Of a stretch of DNA of 59,896 bases, positions 45,390-59,075 are shown one piece after another (position 1 is the first letter of the stretch; each line of letters opens with the position of its first letter). The notes beneath the pieces were generated by a model. It was not told the origin of the DNA and made no database searches. It worked only from the letters and a program-made list of their open reading frames with translations. This DNA comes from Chloroflexota bacterium (GTDB lineage Bacteria > Chloroflexota > Dehalococcoidia > GIF9 > UBA5629), in contig VGOP01000012.1 in the NCBI GenBank assembly GCA_016875875.1, positions 1-59,896 of the forward strand, read 5' to 3'. Made by a program: the position numbers and the translations under genes.

Positions 45390-45899
45390 TCAGTCCTCTA
45401 CAGTTATGAAATCTCTTATCCTATCTAAGGTGGATTCACCGATACCCTCGACCTTCAATAAGTCTTCGATTCTGCGGAAAGGTCCATGTTGGCTACGGTA
45501 GTCGATAATAGCTTGAGCCCTGTCCGGGCCGATTCCAGGTAAGGCATCCAGCAGCCAGCCTTCAGCCCAGTTTAGGTTTATTCTTTGCGGTTGAGAGCCT
45601 TCGCCAGTCCTGGGCACATAAATCTTGATTTTGCCCGTATCTGCGTCTGATATAAGTCCGGCAGCTTGGACAAGTGCCTCTATGGTGTCATCTTCTTTAA
45701 AGGGATAGAAACCTGGGTTAGCCACGGCGCCGCCGATGTAAATCTCGCCTTTATACTGAATTGGCGCAGTTTGGGACAGGGAAATCTCGACAGGCCTATG
45801 GCTGCTTTGCTTTACTGCAAGCACAATGCCGCCGCTGACGAGGCTGACCAGCAAAAAGGCGATAATGAATAGCCAGTATTTATTTAAATTACTTGACAT
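45390..45899 (-). CDS. comEA: ComEA-family DNA-binding protein
   Basis: The 169-residue protein has an N-terminal membrane anchor (YWLFIIAFLLVSLVSGGIVLAV), an SLBB domain (YIGGAVANPGFYPFKEDDTIEALVQAAG) and a C-terminal double helix-hairpin-helix (LLDALPGIGPDRAQAIIDYR, VEGIGESTLDRI). ComEA binds double-stranded DNA outside the membrane and passes it to ComEC. The pairing with comEC supports natural uptake of DNA, though pilus genes are not in the window. Confidence 0.9.
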   Translation of the reverse strand: MSSNLNKYWLFIIAFLLVSLVSGGIVLAVKQSSHRPVEISLSQTAPIQYKGEIYIGGAVANPGFYPFKEDDTIEALVQAAGLISDADTGKIKIYVPRTGEGSQPQRINLNWAEGWLLDALPGIGPDRAQAIIDYRSQHGPFRRIEDLLKVEGIGESTLDRIRDFITVED

Positions 45900-46862: not shown

Positions 46863-47912
46863 CTATCCTACAAGTATCTTTCCTTTTGGCTTGCTGATTA
46901 CTTCTCCGACGATGACTGCATCCTGTACACCGGCTTTATGCAGCTTGTTTACCAGTAATTTTGCGGTTTCAGGAGCCAGTACAATCAGTAGACCGCCGGA
47001 GGTTTGAGGGTCAAAGAGTATGTCCTGAATGTAATCAGGTACCTGTTTGGAGAATTCCACCATTTTGCCGTAGAACTCCCTGTTTCTACGCAAGCCACCG
47101 GGACAAAGCCCTGCCCTGGCAAATCCCTCCACCTCTGCGAAGATAGGGACTGAACTTGGATTGATTTTGATGCCTACACGGCTGTTCTGGACTAGCTGGC
47201 AGGCATGGCCGAGAAAGCCGAAGCCGGTTATGTCAGTGCAGGCATGAGCTCCTGTCTCCTGCATCAGTTCCGAGGCCTTCTTGTTTAGAGACGCCATATA
47301 CTTTGTCACCTTGGCTACTGTCTCTTTGCTGGCTTTGCCGGCTTTCAGGGCAGTGCTTATGATCCCAGTGCCTAAGGGCTTGGTGAGTATAATTTTGTCT
47401 CCCACTTTGGCTCCGGAATTAGTTACCATGCGTTCAGGATGCACCGTGCCGGTGACAGAAAGCCCATATTTTAGCTCGGCGTCGTCTATACTGTGTCCAC
47501 CGACAAGTGTCACACCAGCTTCTTTCATCTTGTCTAGTCCACCCTTGAGTATATCTTTCAGTATGGAGATGTCCAGCTTATTTATCGGGAAACAGACTAC
47601 ATTCATGGCGGTCAGAGGCTTGCCGCCCATGGCGTAAACATCGCTCAGCGCATTGGCGACAGCAATCTGGCCGAAATCGTAGGGGTCATCGACAATGGGC
47701 GTGAAGAAATCTATGGTCTGGATGATAGCCAGGTCATCGCTCAATTTGTATACGCCAGCATCATCCAGGCTTTCCATGCCTCGAATCACGTTCTTATCAG
47801 GTATCAGGGGCAAGCCGCATAGGACTTTATCCAGGTCACCCGGACCTAACTTGGAAGCTCAGCCGGCTCCGGTGACACTTTCAGTAAGGCGGGGTGGTAT
47901 CTTTTTGTCCAT
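46863..47912 (-). CDS. selD: selenophosphate synthase SelD, itself a selenoprotein (in-frame TGA)
   Basis: The true start is ATG 47912. After 17 codons ending GAG, a TGA (47861-47859) lies exactly where SelD has its catalytic Cys or Sec, followed by ASKLGPGDL, which matches the SelD active-site loop. Reading TGA as Sec gives 349 residues. Ordinary gene calling starts at 47813 and loses 33 residues. Later motifs include SLDDAGVYKL, NALSDVYAMGG, VGGHSIDD and DITGFGFLGHA. SelD makes selenophosphate from selenide and ATP for Sec synthesis. selA, selB and tRNA-Sec are all within 6 kb, which supports real recoding. Confidence 0.93.
47831..47861 (-). promoter_or_regulatory. UGA codon and bacterial SECIS-like hairpin of selD
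   Basis: Counting U of UGA as 1, AGGUC (15-19) pairs with GACCU (25-29) around loop CGGGU (20-24), with two more U-G pairs below. A G lies in the first two loop positions and GU at 23-24. The loop starts 16 bases after UGA, within the usual bacterial SECIS range. Confidence 0.75.
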
Positions 47913-48557: not shown

Positions 48558-48757
48558 TTTATTCTCTTAGCTTTCTGCGGACACAGATAGAGGCTAGCGC
48601 ATCACTTTGTAGCGTATTCTAACATTGGCCGAACCGAAGAGGCAAAGACCGGGCATGTATGAATACCTGCCCATAAACCCTCTGCCATTCTGAGCAAAAT
48701 GAAGAATCTTTGCTAGCTTTGAAACTCGGTCTGAGTATAGTAGAATATCTGTGCATC

Positions 48758-50137
48758 ATGGAGAGTGAACTTCGTCGCCTTCCCAGCGTGGATAAGGTCA
48801 TTTCTGATGAGCGAATCAAGCAGCTTCGTGAGATTTACCCACATGGCCTGGTTGTGGACTTGGTTCGCCAACGCCTTGAGCAAGACCGCATGGCTATCAC
48901 GCATGGTAATCCATGTCCTTCATTAGATGATATTGTGGACTTTATCTGTTCTCAGGTACGGGCATTGGAACAGCTCAGCCTGCGCCCGGTTATCAACGCC
49001 AGTGGCGTGATACTTCATACCAACTTGGGTCGGGCACCGCTTAGCAAAGAGGCGACAGTTGCTATGGAGATGGTTGCCACAGGCTACTGCAACCTGGAGT
49101 TTGACCTTGATAGTGGGGCACGAGGCTCTCGTGATGTTCATATCGAACAGCTTCTGTGTCAGTTGACCGGAGCCGAGGCGGCACTGGTAGTAAATAACAA
49201 CGCTTCTGCTGTGTTATTGGCCCTCACTGCTCTAGCCAAAAGGAGAGAAGTGGTTGTCTCCCGAGGTCAGGCTGTGGAGATCGGCGGCGGCTTTCGTATC
49301 CCTGATGTGATGAGACAGAGCGGGGCAAAGCTGGTAGAGATTGGCACTACTAACTGTACCTATATTTACGACTATGAGCAAGCGATTAGCCCAAGAACGG
49401 CAGCCCTTCTACGTGTCCACGCCAGCAATTTCAGAGTCGAGGGTTTTACGTATTCGGTTACTATTGAGGAGTTGGTGGCGCTTGGCGATAAACATGACAT
49501 TCCTGTGCTGGATGATGTGGGCAGCGGTTGCTTATTAGACACAACTAGGTTTGGGCTTGGTCCAGAGCCTACGGTGCAGCAGAGCATCTCTCTTGGTATT
49601 GGGATAGCTTGCTTTTCTGGGGATAAGCTCGTGGGTGGTCCTCAAGCCGGGGTTATCGTTGGCAAGAAGAGCCTTGTTAATAAGCTAAAACGGCATCCCT
49701 TGATGCGGGCACTCCGCATTGACAAAATACGACTGGCTGGTTTAGCCGCAACATTGGTTCATTATCTGAAAGACGAAGCATTGGAGAAAATTCCTGTGTG
49801 GCATATGATTTCAACTTCTCTGGATGAGGTGGAAGGACGAGCCAGAGTTTGGGCACAGACTATTGGTGACTTGGCTCAGATGATTGAAGGTGAGACCATG
49901 GTCGGAGGTGGCAGCTTGCCAGGGAGCACACTTCCCACCAGACTTGTTGCCATTGGTGAGAAAGGAAGCCACAGAGACTTAGCCCAATCCTTGGCTCAGA
50001 GGCTGCGGCACCATGACCCACCAGTTATCGGGCATATCAGCGGCGATGTTTTGCTTCTTGATCCGAGGACTGTTCTTCCTGAGGAAGATGATATCGTAAT
50101 GAAGGCACTGAGCAATGCAGTTGCTAGCTTGAAATAG
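48758..50137 (+). CDS. selA: L-seryl-tRNA(Sec) selenium transferase SelA
   Basis: From ATG 48758 the protein has 459 residues. It has the N-terminal tRNA-binding region (LRRLPSVDKVI), RPVINASGVILHTNLGRAPLS, EAALVVNNNASAVLLAL and the PLP-lysine motif FSGDKLVGGPQAG. SelA converts Ser-tRNA(Sec) to Sec-tRNA(Sec) with selenophosphate, as a large ring. It lies 92 bases upstream of selB on the same strand. Confidence 0.95.
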   Translation: MESELRRLPSVDKVISDERIKQLREIYPHGLVVDLVRQRLEQDRMAITHGNPCPSLDDIVDFICSQVRALEQLSLRPVINASGVILHTNLGRAPLSKEATVAMEMVATGYCNLEFDLDSGARGSRDVHIEQLLCQLTGAEAALVVNNNASAVLLALTALAKRREVVVSRGQAVEIGGGFRIPDVMRQSGAKLVEIGTTNCTYIYDYEQAISPRTAALLRVHASNFRVEGFTYSVTIEELVALGDKHDIPVLDDVGSGCLLDTTRFGLGPEPTVQQSISLGIGIACFSGDKLVGGPQAGVIVGKKSLVNKLKRHPLMRALRIDKIRLAGLAATLVHYLKDEALEKIPVWHMISTSLDEVEGRARVWAQTIGDLAQMIEGETMVGGGSLPGSTLPTRLVAIGEKGSHRDLAQSLAQRLRHHDPPVIGHISGDVLLLDPRTVLPEEDDIVMKALSNAVASLK

Positions 50138-50229: not shown

Positions 50230-52077
50230 ATGTTTGTTATAGGCACTGCTGGACACATAGACCACGGCAAATCGGTTTTGATACAGGCACTAACAGGAAT
50301 AGACCCTGACCGACTTCCAGAAGAGAAGGAACGTGGCATGACCATTGACCTGGGTTTTGCCTGGATGAAATTACCCAGTGGGCAGGAAGTCGGGATTGTT
50401 GATGTGCCCGGGCATGAGCGTTTCGTTAAGAATATGCTGGCTGGTGTAGGTGGCATCGATTTAGCCTTGCTTATCGTTGCTGCTGATGAGGGGATAATGC
50501 CCCAGACCAGAGAGCATTTAGCTATACTCGACTTACTTGACATAAGAAAAGGTATTGTTGTTATCACCAAGAAGGACCTGGTTGATGAAGAATTGTTGAG
50601 CCTGGTCAGGCTTGAGGTTGAGGAATTGATAAAGTCGACGGCTTTGGCTGAAGCTCCCGTCCTTGCTGTTTCTGCGGTGATTGGTGAGGGGCTACCAGAC
50701 CTAGTCGCAACTATCGACCGGATTTTAATATCTGCTGAGCCAAGGAAAGATATCGGTAGGCCTAGGCTTATAATAGATCGTGCCTTCACTATAGCTGGCT
50801 CCGGCACTGTAGTCACTGGAACATTGGTTGATGGCTCGCTGTCGGTGGGGCAGGAAGTTGAGGTAGTCCCTCCGGGGCTCAAAGCCAGGCTGCGAGGACT
50901 GCAAACTCACAAGACTCGCATTGATGTTGCTAAACCGGGCAGTCGTGTAGCAGCCAACTTAGCTGGAGTGGCTATTTCTCAGTTGGAGCGTGGTGATGTG
51001 CTCACCTCTCCAGGCTGGTTAATGCCGACAGCGAGAGTGGATGTAAAGCTTCGCATGCTCTCAGGCCTCAAACATACTCTGCGTCATGGTTCTGCTGTTA
51101 GCTTTTTTACAGGTGCTGCCGAGATTATAGCCAAAGTTCACCTGCTGGAGAAAGAGAAACTAGATTCTGGAGACATTTCCTGGGCTCAACTCGCCTTGGC
51201 TAAACCAGTGGCATTGGTTAAGGGTGACCGTTTCATTATCCGTTCACCCATGGATACCTTGGGAGGTGGTCAGATTGTTAATTCGCACGCTCCGAGACAT
51301 CGTCGATTCCGCCCAGCAATTATCCAGAGCCTGAAGGTTAGGGGAGAGGGTGCGGTAGAAGATGTCATAGTTGCTACTCTGGAGGCGAATCGACCCCTAG
51401 AATTAGAGAAACTGACAGTTCAATGTAATCTGGCAAATGACGAAGCCCATAAGGTTGTTGATGAGCTCATTAAAAAAGGAAGGATTGTGGCGGTAGGGCA
51501 TGGAGGACAAAATCTTCTTTTTACCAGTTCTGGTTGGGAACGATTGACTAGAAAAGCAGAAGCTGTAGTAGAAAGTTATCATCGCAAATTCCCGACTCGT
51601 TCAGGCATGTCTAAGGGCGAGCTTAGCAGTAAGTTAAAGCTATCGCCAAATTCCCCAGCTTTACAAAGGCTTTTCGATGACGGTGTTCTAGTTGAAGAGG
51701 GGGCAGCTGCCCACCTTCCTTCTTACCGAGTTAAACTTTCCCCGCAGCAGCAGGCAAAAATTGATGCTTTCCTTCTTGTTCTAGGCCAGAATCCTTATTC
51801 TCCGCCTGGTGATATAACACTCGAACCTGACCTGCTCAATTTGCTTATCGAACAGCAACAGGTGTTAAAGGTAAGCGATGGTGTGGTCTTTTCTGTCTCT
51901 GCCTATAACGAAATGGTGGATAAAGTTATCGCTTATGCCAAGGCAAAAGGTAAAGTGACCCTCGCCGAAGTACGGGATATGCTGGGCACCAGCCGTAAGT
52001 ATGCCCAAGCACTTCTAGAATATATGGACGAGAAAAAGCTCACGCGCCGGGTCGGTGACGAGCGGATACTAAGGTAA
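50230..52077 (+). CDS. selB: selenocysteine-specific elongation factor SelB
   Basis: The 615-residue protein has an EF-Tu-like G domain ([40 protein letters not shown]). Beta-barrel domains follow ([15 protein letters not shown]), and then C-terminal winged helices (about 360-615, [14 protein letters not shown] and [32 protein letters not shown]). The winged helices bind SECIS hairpins. AGCAAAAAGG precedes the ATG. Its stop nearly meets the end of the readthrough frame of the convergent zinc-ribbon gene. Confidence 0.96.
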
Positions 52078-52245
52078 CTAATACTGTTTTATTAGTTGAT
52101 CGTTGTCCTCAAAGAAATACCAGGAGCCATTATATTCTGAGTTTATAGGGCAGGTTTTAATGACGCTCCACATCCCATTGCCTATATACTGAGCGGTAAA
52201 AGTCGGTTGGGCGTCCTCATACTGAGGACAACTTGGGCTAACTCA
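52078..52245 (-). other. in-frame readthrough extension and SECIS-like hairpin after a TGA (candidate Sec codon)
   Basis: The zinc-ribbon gene stops at TGA (52245-52243). The same frame stays open for 54 codons to TAG (52080-52078) and reads like protein (QPTFTAQYIGNG, then WSVIKTCP and WYFFEDNDQLIKQY). GUCCUC (52229-52224) pairs with GAGGAC (52218-52213) around AGUAU, a 6-bp stem whose loop starts 19 bases after UGA and has G in its second position. This geometry fits a bacterial SECIS. A nonsense mutation remains possible. Confidence 0.5.
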
Positions 52246-52779
52246 GCCGGTTCGCCTGGTGGGCACTCGACAATAGGGGCTAATCTTCTTTGCTGCAGCT
52301 ATCACTTGGTCCATCGTGTAGTGTGGTGAATCGGAGGCTGGTTTCAGCTGCTGTTGAGCATCTGTGCTTGGTGGTGTTGAAGGTGGAGATGCTCCCCCAA
52401 AGATAAAGCTGCTGCCAAACCAGTTAGATGTTTGCCCTTGCAGACCTGTACCAATAGTGTAGAGGATTGCTCCGATGAAAATGATAGTGGCTATGAAGAT
52501 AAGATAGCGACCAATCTGACCTGCAGGTTGTGGCACCATCCTTTCCCTTCTGGCTCTTTCCTTTTGGCGGGCTTCTTTGACTTTGTTAGCTGAAGGCTTT
52601 GTCAAATGTGTTTGCTGGTATAGCTTTCCGCCGCAATTGGTGCAAAAGCCGGATAAGTCTCTAGTAGCAGCACCGCAGTGGTGACATCTGTATTCGAAAC
52701 GTTGGCCACAAGTGTTGCAGAGCTGTTGCCCTACGGGAATTTGTGCGCCACATTTTGGACATGGGAACGCTTGTTGCAA
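52243..52779 (-). CDS. double zinc-ribbon membrane protein (possibly extended by Sec readthrough)
   Basis: The 178 residues begin with two zinc ribbons (CPKCGAQIPVGQQLCNTCG, about 7-25, and CHHCG...CTNCG, about 33-50). A basic linker, one transmembrane helix (YLIFIATIIFIGAILYTIGTG, about 92-112) and a Ser/Pro-rich segment follow. The frame ends KKISPYCRVPTRRTG-TGA, which cuts the protein in what looks like a domain. With the 54 further codons it would have 233 residues. The function is unknown. Confidence 0.6.
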   Translation of the reverse strand: MQQAFPCPKCGAQIPVGQQLCNTCGQRFEYRCHHCGAATRDLSGFCTNCGGKLYQQTHLTKPSANKVKEARQKERARRERMVPQPAGQIGRYLIFIATIIFIGAILYTIGTGLQGQTSNWFGSSFIFGGASPPSTPPSTDAQQQLKPASDSPHYTMDQVIAAAKKISPYCRVPTRRTG

Positions 52780-53098: not shown

Positions 53099-53233
53099 AT
53101 GAGCAAAAGTAAGAAATTCTTGGCTATCCTCAAAGGTGACAAGAAACTGTTGGGGATGTTCGGTGGCATCGTTATTGATGCCGCTGTTCTTACCGCCATT
53201 CTAGTCACGGCCTGTGTTTGGTATTTGCCGTAA
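53099..53233 (+). CDS. small single-pass membrane protein (44 aa)
   Basis: The start MSKSKKFLAIL follows a perfect AGGAGG at 5 bases; the longer upstream frame is not credible. A basic N-terminus (KGDKK) is followed by one hydrophobic helix (MFGGIVIDAAVLTAILVTACVWYLP). A second tiny membrane gene follows 32 bases later. It may be an accessory subunit of a larger complex; no partner is adjacent. Confidence 0.5.
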   Translation: MSKSKKFLAILKGDKKLLGMFGGIVIDAAVLTAILVTACVWYLP

Positions 53234-53851: not shown

Positions 53852-53948
53852 TGGCGGGAGCGTATGGGAGTCGAACCCACCAGAGACATTTCTGATGCCT
53901 CTCGACGGATTTGAAGTCCGCGAAGCCCACCGGGACCCAAACGCTCCC
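53852..53948 (-). tRNA. selC: tRNA-Sec (anticodon TCA)
   Basis: It has the 8-bp acceptor GGGAGCGT/ACGCTCCC with discriminator G and encoded CCA, anticodon loop CTTCAAA (TCA), and a long variable arm (GAGAGGCATCAGAAATGTCTC). The total is 97 nt, typical of bacterial selC. It supplies the UGA decoder for selD and any other selenoprotein here. Confidence 0.95.
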
Positions 53949-57245: not shown

Positions 57246-57330
57246 GGGGGAGTGTCGGAATTGGCAGACGAGCATGACTTAGGATCATGTGCCGCAAGGC
57301 GTAGGGGTTCGAGTCCCCTCTTCCCCACCA
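57246..57330 (+). tRNA. tRNA-Leu (anticodon TAG), integration target
   Basis: It has acceptor GGGGGAG/CTTCCCC, anticodon loop CTTAGGA, a variable arm, T-arm with TTCGAGT and encoded CCA (57328-57330). The recombinase gene on the other strand ends inside it (57285), so its 3' half is probably the attachment core. Confidence 0.93.
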
Positions 57331-58883
57331 ATCGTATCAATAGGTAGAACTCTTAATTTATCTTCGTATTTCCCGTTTGGCGCTAACGGCAACGTGTAAT
57401 TGATCACTATTTCCCGCCCGTTAACTACTATGCTCTCTATGAAGGTCTTTAGAAAGCCTTTCACCCTACTCACCTCAGTATCTTGCAAAATCCACCTTAA
57501 ATCAGTTACGTAGGACTTCACCATCTCAATATCGACCTGTGTCGCTCCCTCAGCGGATATTTCAGCCTCTATTAATACCCTTGATTTGGAGAGTTCATCC
57601 TGCCTGGTTTTTAACTCTCTAATCCTAGGTGCCAGTTCATCCAAGCCAAGCTTTCCGGTCTCCAGAACATCGTAGAGCCGCGCTAACCTGTTCTGAACAT
57701 CCTTTAGCTGCGAATCAATAGTTTTTAACTTATCTCCTAGCTCGCCTGCTTGAAGTTTCAAAACATCGTTCATGGTTTCAACCATATCTTCAATGCTGGC
57801 ATCAGACAATATTCTTGTGAGTATTTGATCAACTACCGCCTCTTCAAGCTTGTCCTTGGGCAACATTATTTGGGCGCAAGCATCCTTTCCCTGCCTGTAG
57901 CTTCTAGAGCACATATAGTAAAAATATTTGCCTGACTTGGCGCTATGGCCGGTCATCGCACTGCCACAAGCACATCGCAAGACCCCGCTCAAAAGATAGA
58001 AGCTCGAGACTTTCCTGGGATGGGTCATTTTGGGGCCGCGTTCCTTCATCTGGCTCTGTATGAAATTGAAGGCCACTTCATCAATTATGGCTGGCCATGC
58101 ATTCTCTATTCTTACAGGTTTATCACCACGTTTAGCAGCGGCGAAACCATTTTTACCTCCCCATACTAGCGTTCCGCAATAAACCTCGTTGGTGAGGATT
58201 TTATATACTGTGGTTCTGCTCCAGCGCTTCATCGTCATTGTCCTGAATCCATCGCTGTTCAATGACTTGGCAATTTCCTTGCAGCCTTTCCCAAATTGAG
58301 CCATTTTAAAGATCGAGCGTACAACTTTGATAGGTGCAGAATCATCTGGCTCAGGCTCAAGCTTTTTTCTTGTCTTGCCTTTATCATTCACCTCTACCGC
58401 TCTGAATCCATAAGGCGGTATGCTCCCATTATAAAAGCCGCGTGTGGCATTTTCCCTCATGCCTCTTCTAATGTCCTGTCCCATATTTGCGCTATAGAAC
58501 TCATCCATACACTCAATTATTCCCTCCAGCAACTGTCCTTGAGGGCTATCACCGGTTGGCTCATTGATAGATATTACCTGAATGCCTTTGTTTCTGAGCA
58601 AGGCCTTATACGTTACTGAATCCATTCGGTTCCTGGCAAAGCGATTAAGTTTCCATACCAGGATAGCCTGAAAAGGCGGCTGTTTCATCTTGGCGAGAGC
58701 AATCATCTCTCTAAACGCAGGTCTGTCACAACTTCTCCCGCTTTCAGCCTCATCGACGAATTCTCGCACGACCTCGTGACCGCTTTTCGCTGCATATTCT
58801 CTCAACGACCTCAATTGAGCAGACAGCGACAGGTCCACATCTTGTGCGTCTGAGCTGACTCGCGCATAGATAACTACTTTCAT
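57285..58883 (-). CDS. large serine recombinase (phage/ICE integrase)
   Basis: From ATG 58883 (AAGGAGG upstream) the protein has 532 residues. The catalytic domain has VIYARVSSDAQD (nucleophile Ser9 region), VWKLNRFARNR and EPTGDSPQGQLLEGI. A recombinase domain (YGFRAVEV, YKILTNEVYCGTLVWGG), a zinc-ribbon region (LLSGVLRCACGSAM, then CSRSY and CAQI) and a coiled coil (about 395-460) follow. The last residues (EEGTRTPTP) are translated from tRNA-Leu, a signature of an integrase beside its att site. The element extends to the right, beyond the window. Confidence 0.92.
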   Translation of the reverse strand: MKVVIYARVSSDAQDVDLSLSAQLRSLREYAAKSGHEVVREFVDEAESGRSCDRPAFREMIALAKMKQPPFQAILVWKLNRFARNRMDSVTYKALLRNKGIQVISINEPTGDSPQGQLLEGIIECMDEFYSANMGQDIRRGMRENATRGFYNGSIPPYGFRAVEVNDKGKTRKKLEPEPDDSAPIKVVRSIFKMAQFGKGCKEIAKSLNSDGFRTMTMKRWSRTTVYKILTNEVYCGTLVWGGKNGFAAAKRGDKPVRIENAWPAIIDEVAFNFIQSQMKERGPKMTHPRKVSSFYLLSGVLRCACGSAMTGHSAKSGKYFYYMCSRSYRQGKDACAQIMLPKDKLEEAVVDQILTRILSDASIEDMVETMNDVLKLQAGELGDKLKTIDSQLKDVQNRLARLYDVLETGKLGLDELAPRIRELKTRQDELSKSRVLIEAEISAEGATQVDIEMVKSYVTDLRWILQDTEVSRVKGFLKTFIESIVVNGREIVINYTLPLAPNGKYEDKLRVLPIDTIGGEEGTRTPTPCGT

Positions 58884-59075
58884 TTTGTGGCCTCCTTGTA
58901 AAGATTGTAACCAACACAAATATTATATCAAAAATTAATGCTACTATCACAGAGGAAATACTAATACGAATAATCGATGCATCGAAAATGCTCTATATAA
59001 TAGTATTCATCTGTGGACACCTGGGGCTAGATAAATTTTGGGGTATTTTGAAATATGGTAAGACTCAGGCATTGC

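Follow-up and report, generated by a model that had tools for sequence, protein, structure and literature searches.

A putative selenoprotein with an apparently Sec-only C-terminal domain, encoded beside selB in a Chloroflexota bacterium

The window analyzed here, meaning the whole stretch of 59,896 nucleotides taken from contig VGOP01000012.1 of a Chloroflexota bacterium, holds selA, selB, selC and selD, the last with an in-frame TGA of its own, as the first-pass annotation of this DNA had claimed. The Sec machinery by which candidate bacterial selenoproteins are commonly judged is thus complete within the window, and a candidate selenoprotein gene lies in its midst (Table 1). The reading frame of that gene stays open past the TGA at 52245–52243 for 54 codons up to the TAG at 52080–52078, and when the coordinates of this continuation and of the 233-residue readthrough product were re-derived they agreed with those given previously. 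The zinc-ribbon match (PF12773, 34.9 bits against a cut-off of 27.3) covers the N-terminal part of the product only, and by the positive-inside rule this part is probably cytoplasmic. Two further features of the window may be mentioned. A small, divergent protein of about 44 residues with one transmembrane segment (MSKSKKFLAILKGDKKLLGMFGGIV...TACVWYLP) is encoded at 53099–53233 (+), with counterparts at L090:4664-4915 (-) and L092:1324-1572 (+); it adjoins the selenoprotein gene in three genomes and is a possible partner of its product. At 57246–58919, a large serine recombinase gene adjoins a tRNA-Leu gene with a slight overlap, an arrangement like that of an integrated element.

Table 1. Features of the candidate selenoprotein gene and of the surrounding sel locus (positions in the window).
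Feature	Position	Strand	Details
Candidate selenoprotein gene	52078..52779	-	TTG start 52779, putative Sec-UGA, TAG stop 52080-52078; 233 aa
Putative Sec-encoding UGA, residue 179	52243..52245	-	TGA aligned in 24/24 homologues
Predicted bacterial SECIS hairpin GUCCUC[AGUAU]GAGGAC	52213..52229	-	Apical G at 52222 (+24)
Double zinc ribbon, residues 7-53	52621..52761	-	Pfam PF12773 E 1.7e-8 and PF13240 E 1.7e-8, both above cut-off
Transmembrane segment, about residues 91-110	52450..52509	-	Read from sequence; Lys/Arg-rich stretch just N-terminal
Putative Sec domain, residues 151-233: helix, Sec loop, four beta strands	52081..52329	-	Family alignment and AlphaFold2 model
selB	50230..52077	+	TIGR00475 360 bits, above cut-off; tail to tail with the candidate selenoprotein gene
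selA	48710..50137	+	TIGR00474 562 bits, above cut-off
selC, tRNA-Sec, anticodon TCA	53852..53948	-	ARAGORN; RF01852 74.2 bits
selD, in-frame TGA 47861-47859 (GAGU-A-S-K)	46863..47861	-	Start slightly upstream

The search for homologues covered 30 genomes, all from the GTDB family of Chloroflexota to which the window belongs; nearly all sequences are apparently metagenome-assembled. The search yielded 24 copies of the C-terminal domain in 15 genomes, one of them a second copy in the window's own genome (contig C3), and every one of the 24 had TGA at the aligned position, with Cys or any other codon in none; a 25th copy (L082) ends at a contig end and nonetheless has the TGA. Full-length or near full-length relatives, of 73%, 72%, 50%, 48%, 47% and 40% identity, have exactly one internal TGA each, the two closest spanning 233 residues through it, and there were numerous additional copies of the C-terminal domain by itself. 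The TGA lies inside a conserved domain of about 85 residues, in which SPxC, W, KTC and WxF are invariant or nearly so in the alignment; these motifs are all outside the Sec loop, and conservation is poor on either side of Sec. One zinc-ribbon copy in the data (in G003) is without a Sec domain solely owing to an N gap in the assembly, and a zinc-ribbon match recorded with one TGA (G000:C1:197876) was discarded, as the TGA there is an ordinary stop.

The first-pass annotation had proposed that Cys or Sec at the aligned position of homologues would support recoding, and that homologues ending at this point or carrying an unrelated residue would speak against it. Such dissenting homologues were looked for, and none of the 24 was of that kind. 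The expectation of Sec was borne out in all 24, that of Cys was not, and the family so far appears to be Sec-only. Beyond the GTDB family, neither a copy of the domain nor a Cys homologue at the Sec site was found in 84 genomes of the order, 393 of the class (sampled) or 400 of the phylum (sampled). The sole match outside the family, a distant, partial and stop-free one from another family of the class (L085, G390:C43:16807-16956), is related to the half of that domain which forms the sheet and has neither the Cys nor the Sec loop; a search among close relatives of G390 gave nothing further.

Across 12 pairs of relatives, dN/dS beyond the TGA was 0.05–0.56, similar to that of the upstream part, and on this comparison the codons 3′ of the TGA are judged to be under purifying selection in the same frame. 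The UGA accordingly has conserved coding sequence before as well as after it in a single frame, another mark of bacterial selenoprotein genes. That the TGA would be a true stop, with decay, sequencing error or compensated frameshifts behind what follows it, we regard as having next to no probability: compensating frameshifts were considered first because another frame, reading VECPPGEPAELAQ, stays open over some 38 codons spanning the site, but 24 homologues, taken from independent assemblies, align in frame 0 through the TGA without any shift and purifying selection is seen beyond it, and the aligned TGA in 24 of 24 also makes a sequencing error untenable. A reassignment of TGA throughout the genome was likewise rejected, since TGA serves as an ordinary stop elsewhere, ending other genes of the window (45390–45899 and 57285–58919) as well as some members of the family.

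Downstream of the UGA, we recovered the hairpin that had been described earlier, having 6 bp, a 5-nt loop (AGUAU) starting 19 nt past the UGA and a G at loop position 2. Its stem starts 13 nt past the UGA and comprises 6–7 bp, counting a possible extra U-G pair, with a folding energy of -10.2 kcal/mol, and when the peptide was recoded synonymously, the native hairpin was better than 99.5% of the resulting sequences (P = 0.005). When this test was made at the observed apex position, P was below 0.05 for 21 of 23 sequences, the two weaker hairpins being those of L015 and L016 (P 0.30 and 0.10 at fixed apex). All 23 distinct sequences have the apical loop N-G-[U/G]-N-N, and the apical G falls on a third codon position in every case, being found at +21 or +24 only as counted from the U of UGA; the hairpin of L055 fits at +24 with one stem mismatch. 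Since the amino acid of the apex codon varies (Gln, Leu, Arg, Pro or Ser) with the third-base G fixed throughout, the constraint is on the RNA. When the hairpins were aligned without gaps, 93.7% of cells were paired, 16 cells were double-changed and five of the six pairs were changed on both sides, with none of 500 shuffles reaching the observed pairing or covariation score and with slid registers pairing at 48–64%.

The published model of bacterial SECIS elements has an N-G-[G/U]-N-N loop located 16–37 nt past the UGA (PMC13188914), and the hairpin of the window agrees with it in loop, G and spacing. The hairpin pointed to earlier is thus supported as a bacterial SECIS element, with regards to both covariation and fit to the model. 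Two other genes of the same genome with an in-frame Sec codon offer a comparison, with selD having the hairpin AGGUC[CGGGU]GACCU with its apical G at +21, and the Sec-containing formate dehydrogenase having its apical G at +22/23. The latter gene (G000:C6, L105:1876; VDHCARLUHSPT) has its own hairpin, and another formate dehydrogenase-like gene, without TGA, is found at G000:C1:190395-192353.

We also compared the distribution of the domain with that of the Sec machinery, scoring a genome as Sec-positive on selA, selB or a strong tRNA-Sec match. Sec genes were present in 12 of the 15 genomes with the domain versus 2 of the 15 without it (Fisher p = 0.0007, to be taken only as a guide because of the kinship among the genomes). 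With at least 90% completeness, sel genes were seen in 5/5 genomes having the domain as opposed to 0/7 lacking it, and the three domain-bearing genomes without any sel gene are merely 62–79% complete. The zinc-ribbon form adjoins selB in four genomes of three genera.

Stem-loops conserved 3′ of a stop codon can in principle drive readthrough, and such a structure is indeed present here, so that a near-cognate tRNA, for example that for Trp, might read the UGA with the help of the hairpin and give a C-terminally extended form without any Sec. We find this very improbable, because the loop, the G and the spacing of the hairpin all fit the SelB-type SECIS model, neither UAA nor UAG is ever found in place of UGA, the gene tracks the sel genes and adjoins selB, and the short lipoprotein forms described below would be mere stubs if ended at the UGA. 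The aligned TGA, the same-frame coding beyond it and the covarying SECIS element all favor the reading of this codon as Sec, put forward on the first inspection of the locus. From these sequence data, UGA 179 is in our judgment almost certainly decoded as Sec, and the claim that the gene encodes a selenoprotein is, taken as a whole, highly probable as well.

The earlier description of the site as not being a CxxU motif, with the nearest Cys residues 9 before and 5 after Sec, was correct for the window protein. It can be refined in that Sec is not isolated from Cys either, a Cys being located no more than five residues away in 22 of 23 members. Background Cys frequency would predict this for only about a quarter of the members. 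Relative to Sec, that Cys is most often located at +5 (nine members) or at -2 (CGU; seven members), with four members having it at +1 and two at +2, and L021 has no Cys near Sec; two further Cys residues, those of SPxC before Sec and KTC after it, are invariant in the domain. A nearby Cys that shifts its position and yet is kept is what would be expected of a Sec/Cys redox pair, which suggests that the two residues may form one. An AlphaFold2 model made from two sequences gave a helix and a four-stranded sheet at a mean pLDDT of 71, with the Sec loop at low confidence. Fold searches with it were weak (best structural Z 4.6, best Foldseek E 1.1), and although a PepSY-like fold had been expected, the structure matches listed contained no PepSY entry, only weak NTF2/cystatin-like ones.

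The Sec domain occurs in four architectures, being found together with a zinc ribbon and a transmembrane segment, in a short lipoprotein, in a transmembrane protein, or in a lipoprotein with a helical domain of some 200 residues C-terminal to it. Judging from a lipobox or the positive-inside rule, it is apparently located outside the membrane in all four. Within the window's genus, the lipoprotein form is part of a conserved cluster (L086:5382-9088 and matching parts of L087, L088, L089, L101 and L104), which encodes a zinc-ribbon/fn3 protein, the Sec lipoprotein, a 107-residue Cys-containing protein without a Pfam family, a DUF4389 protein and a 242-residue helical lipoprotein. The last of these shares homology with the helical domain of the fused form (blastp E as low as 1e-10; 97% in a profile comparison), and that this domain is fused to the Sec domain in some genera and a neighbor in others suggests that the two work together.

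We thus envisage that SelB and tRNA-Sec would decode UGA codon 179 as selenocysteine under direction of the SECIS hairpin, giving a product that would begin with a double zinc ribbon, cross the membrane once and end in a small alpha/beta domain on the extracytoplasmic side, in which Sec would sit in a flexible loop between the helix and the sheet. The most likely chemistry would be a reversible selenenylsulfide between Sec and the nearby Cys, at +5 in the window protein, and the protein could thereby serve as a membrane-tethered selenium redox module. We see roughly balanced chances for and against this redox role. Sec might instead serve in binding of metal or selenium or in sensing, outside thiol redox chemistry, as for instance if the zinc-ribbon form would report selenium status at the sel locus; with the gene located next to selB and close to selC in three genera, the zinc ribbon at the opposite end of the protein and the Sec loop variable, such a function is conceivable. 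It is however the less likely possibility, considering that the three remaining architectures are without the zinc ribbon or are encoded elsewhere in the genome, and that a Cys near Sec is kept in 22 of 23 members, as a redox pair predicts. For the family as a whole, we lean slightly towards the redox reading, in which a Sec-only domain forms a membrane-anchored extracytoplasmic module, with a partner Cys at -2, +1, +2 or +5, in four architectures within one Chloroflexota family and with Cys never replacing Sec.

Almost all selenoprotein families have Cys homologues (PMC12013277). Their absence here is therefore unusual and should be counted against the selenoprotein reading, at the same time as it would be, together with the moving partner Cys, a distinctive feature of the family. 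If the Sec-only reading is true, the family would be invisible to homology methods built on Sec/Cys pairs, and a case without Cys homologues implies that further Sec-only families may stand annotated as truncated genes. It also raises the question of why Cys, one base change away, would be excluded. If these Chloroflexota do have membrane-anchored Sec domains at the outside of the cell, a so far undescribed redox function at the surface would be indicated.

With regards to known systems, the Sec domain matched no sequence family in Pfam, NCBIfam or the PDB, and none of the 23 members matched any NCBIfam model (June 2026) at E 0.1. Zinc-ribbon, lipoprotein or equivalent entries are absent from a 2026 catalogue listing 119 families and subfamilies of prokaryotic selenoproteins (PMC13188914), and our literature search, which covered Haft and Tolstoy 2025 through its listing in that catalogue, found no paper describing the family. 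The lack of such matches together with the absence from the catalogue argues for a new selenoprotein family. A Gly near Sec is shared with the YHS domain selenoprotein (NF041384, GxU), but the YHS match is partial and very weak (18 residues, E 0.03), below cut-off and seen in one of 23 members, which does not amount to membership of NF041384. The predicted helix and antiparallel sheet are like those of NTF2/cystatin-like alpha+beta domains, with scores too weak for a claim of homology. Membrane proteins with a PF12773 double zinc ribbon correspond to the N-terminal part, whereas the Sec domain is foreign to that family and occurs elsewhere without the ribbon. Compared with FdhA and SelD, as selenoproteins using SelB and bacterial SECIS elements, the protein differs by its new domain, for which no thioredoxin-like family could be detected, by the lack of a CxxU or UxxC motif and by the absence of Cys homologues from the genomes searched. 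It is like them in its in-frame UGA, in the loop and distance of the SECIS element and in the sel genes of the genome, with an apex spacing like that of SelD and within 1–3 nt of that of formate dehydrogenase, both from the same genome. On this evidence from sequence, we consider the protein to represent a new selenoprotein family, with a new domain that is predicted to be decoded in the textbook way.
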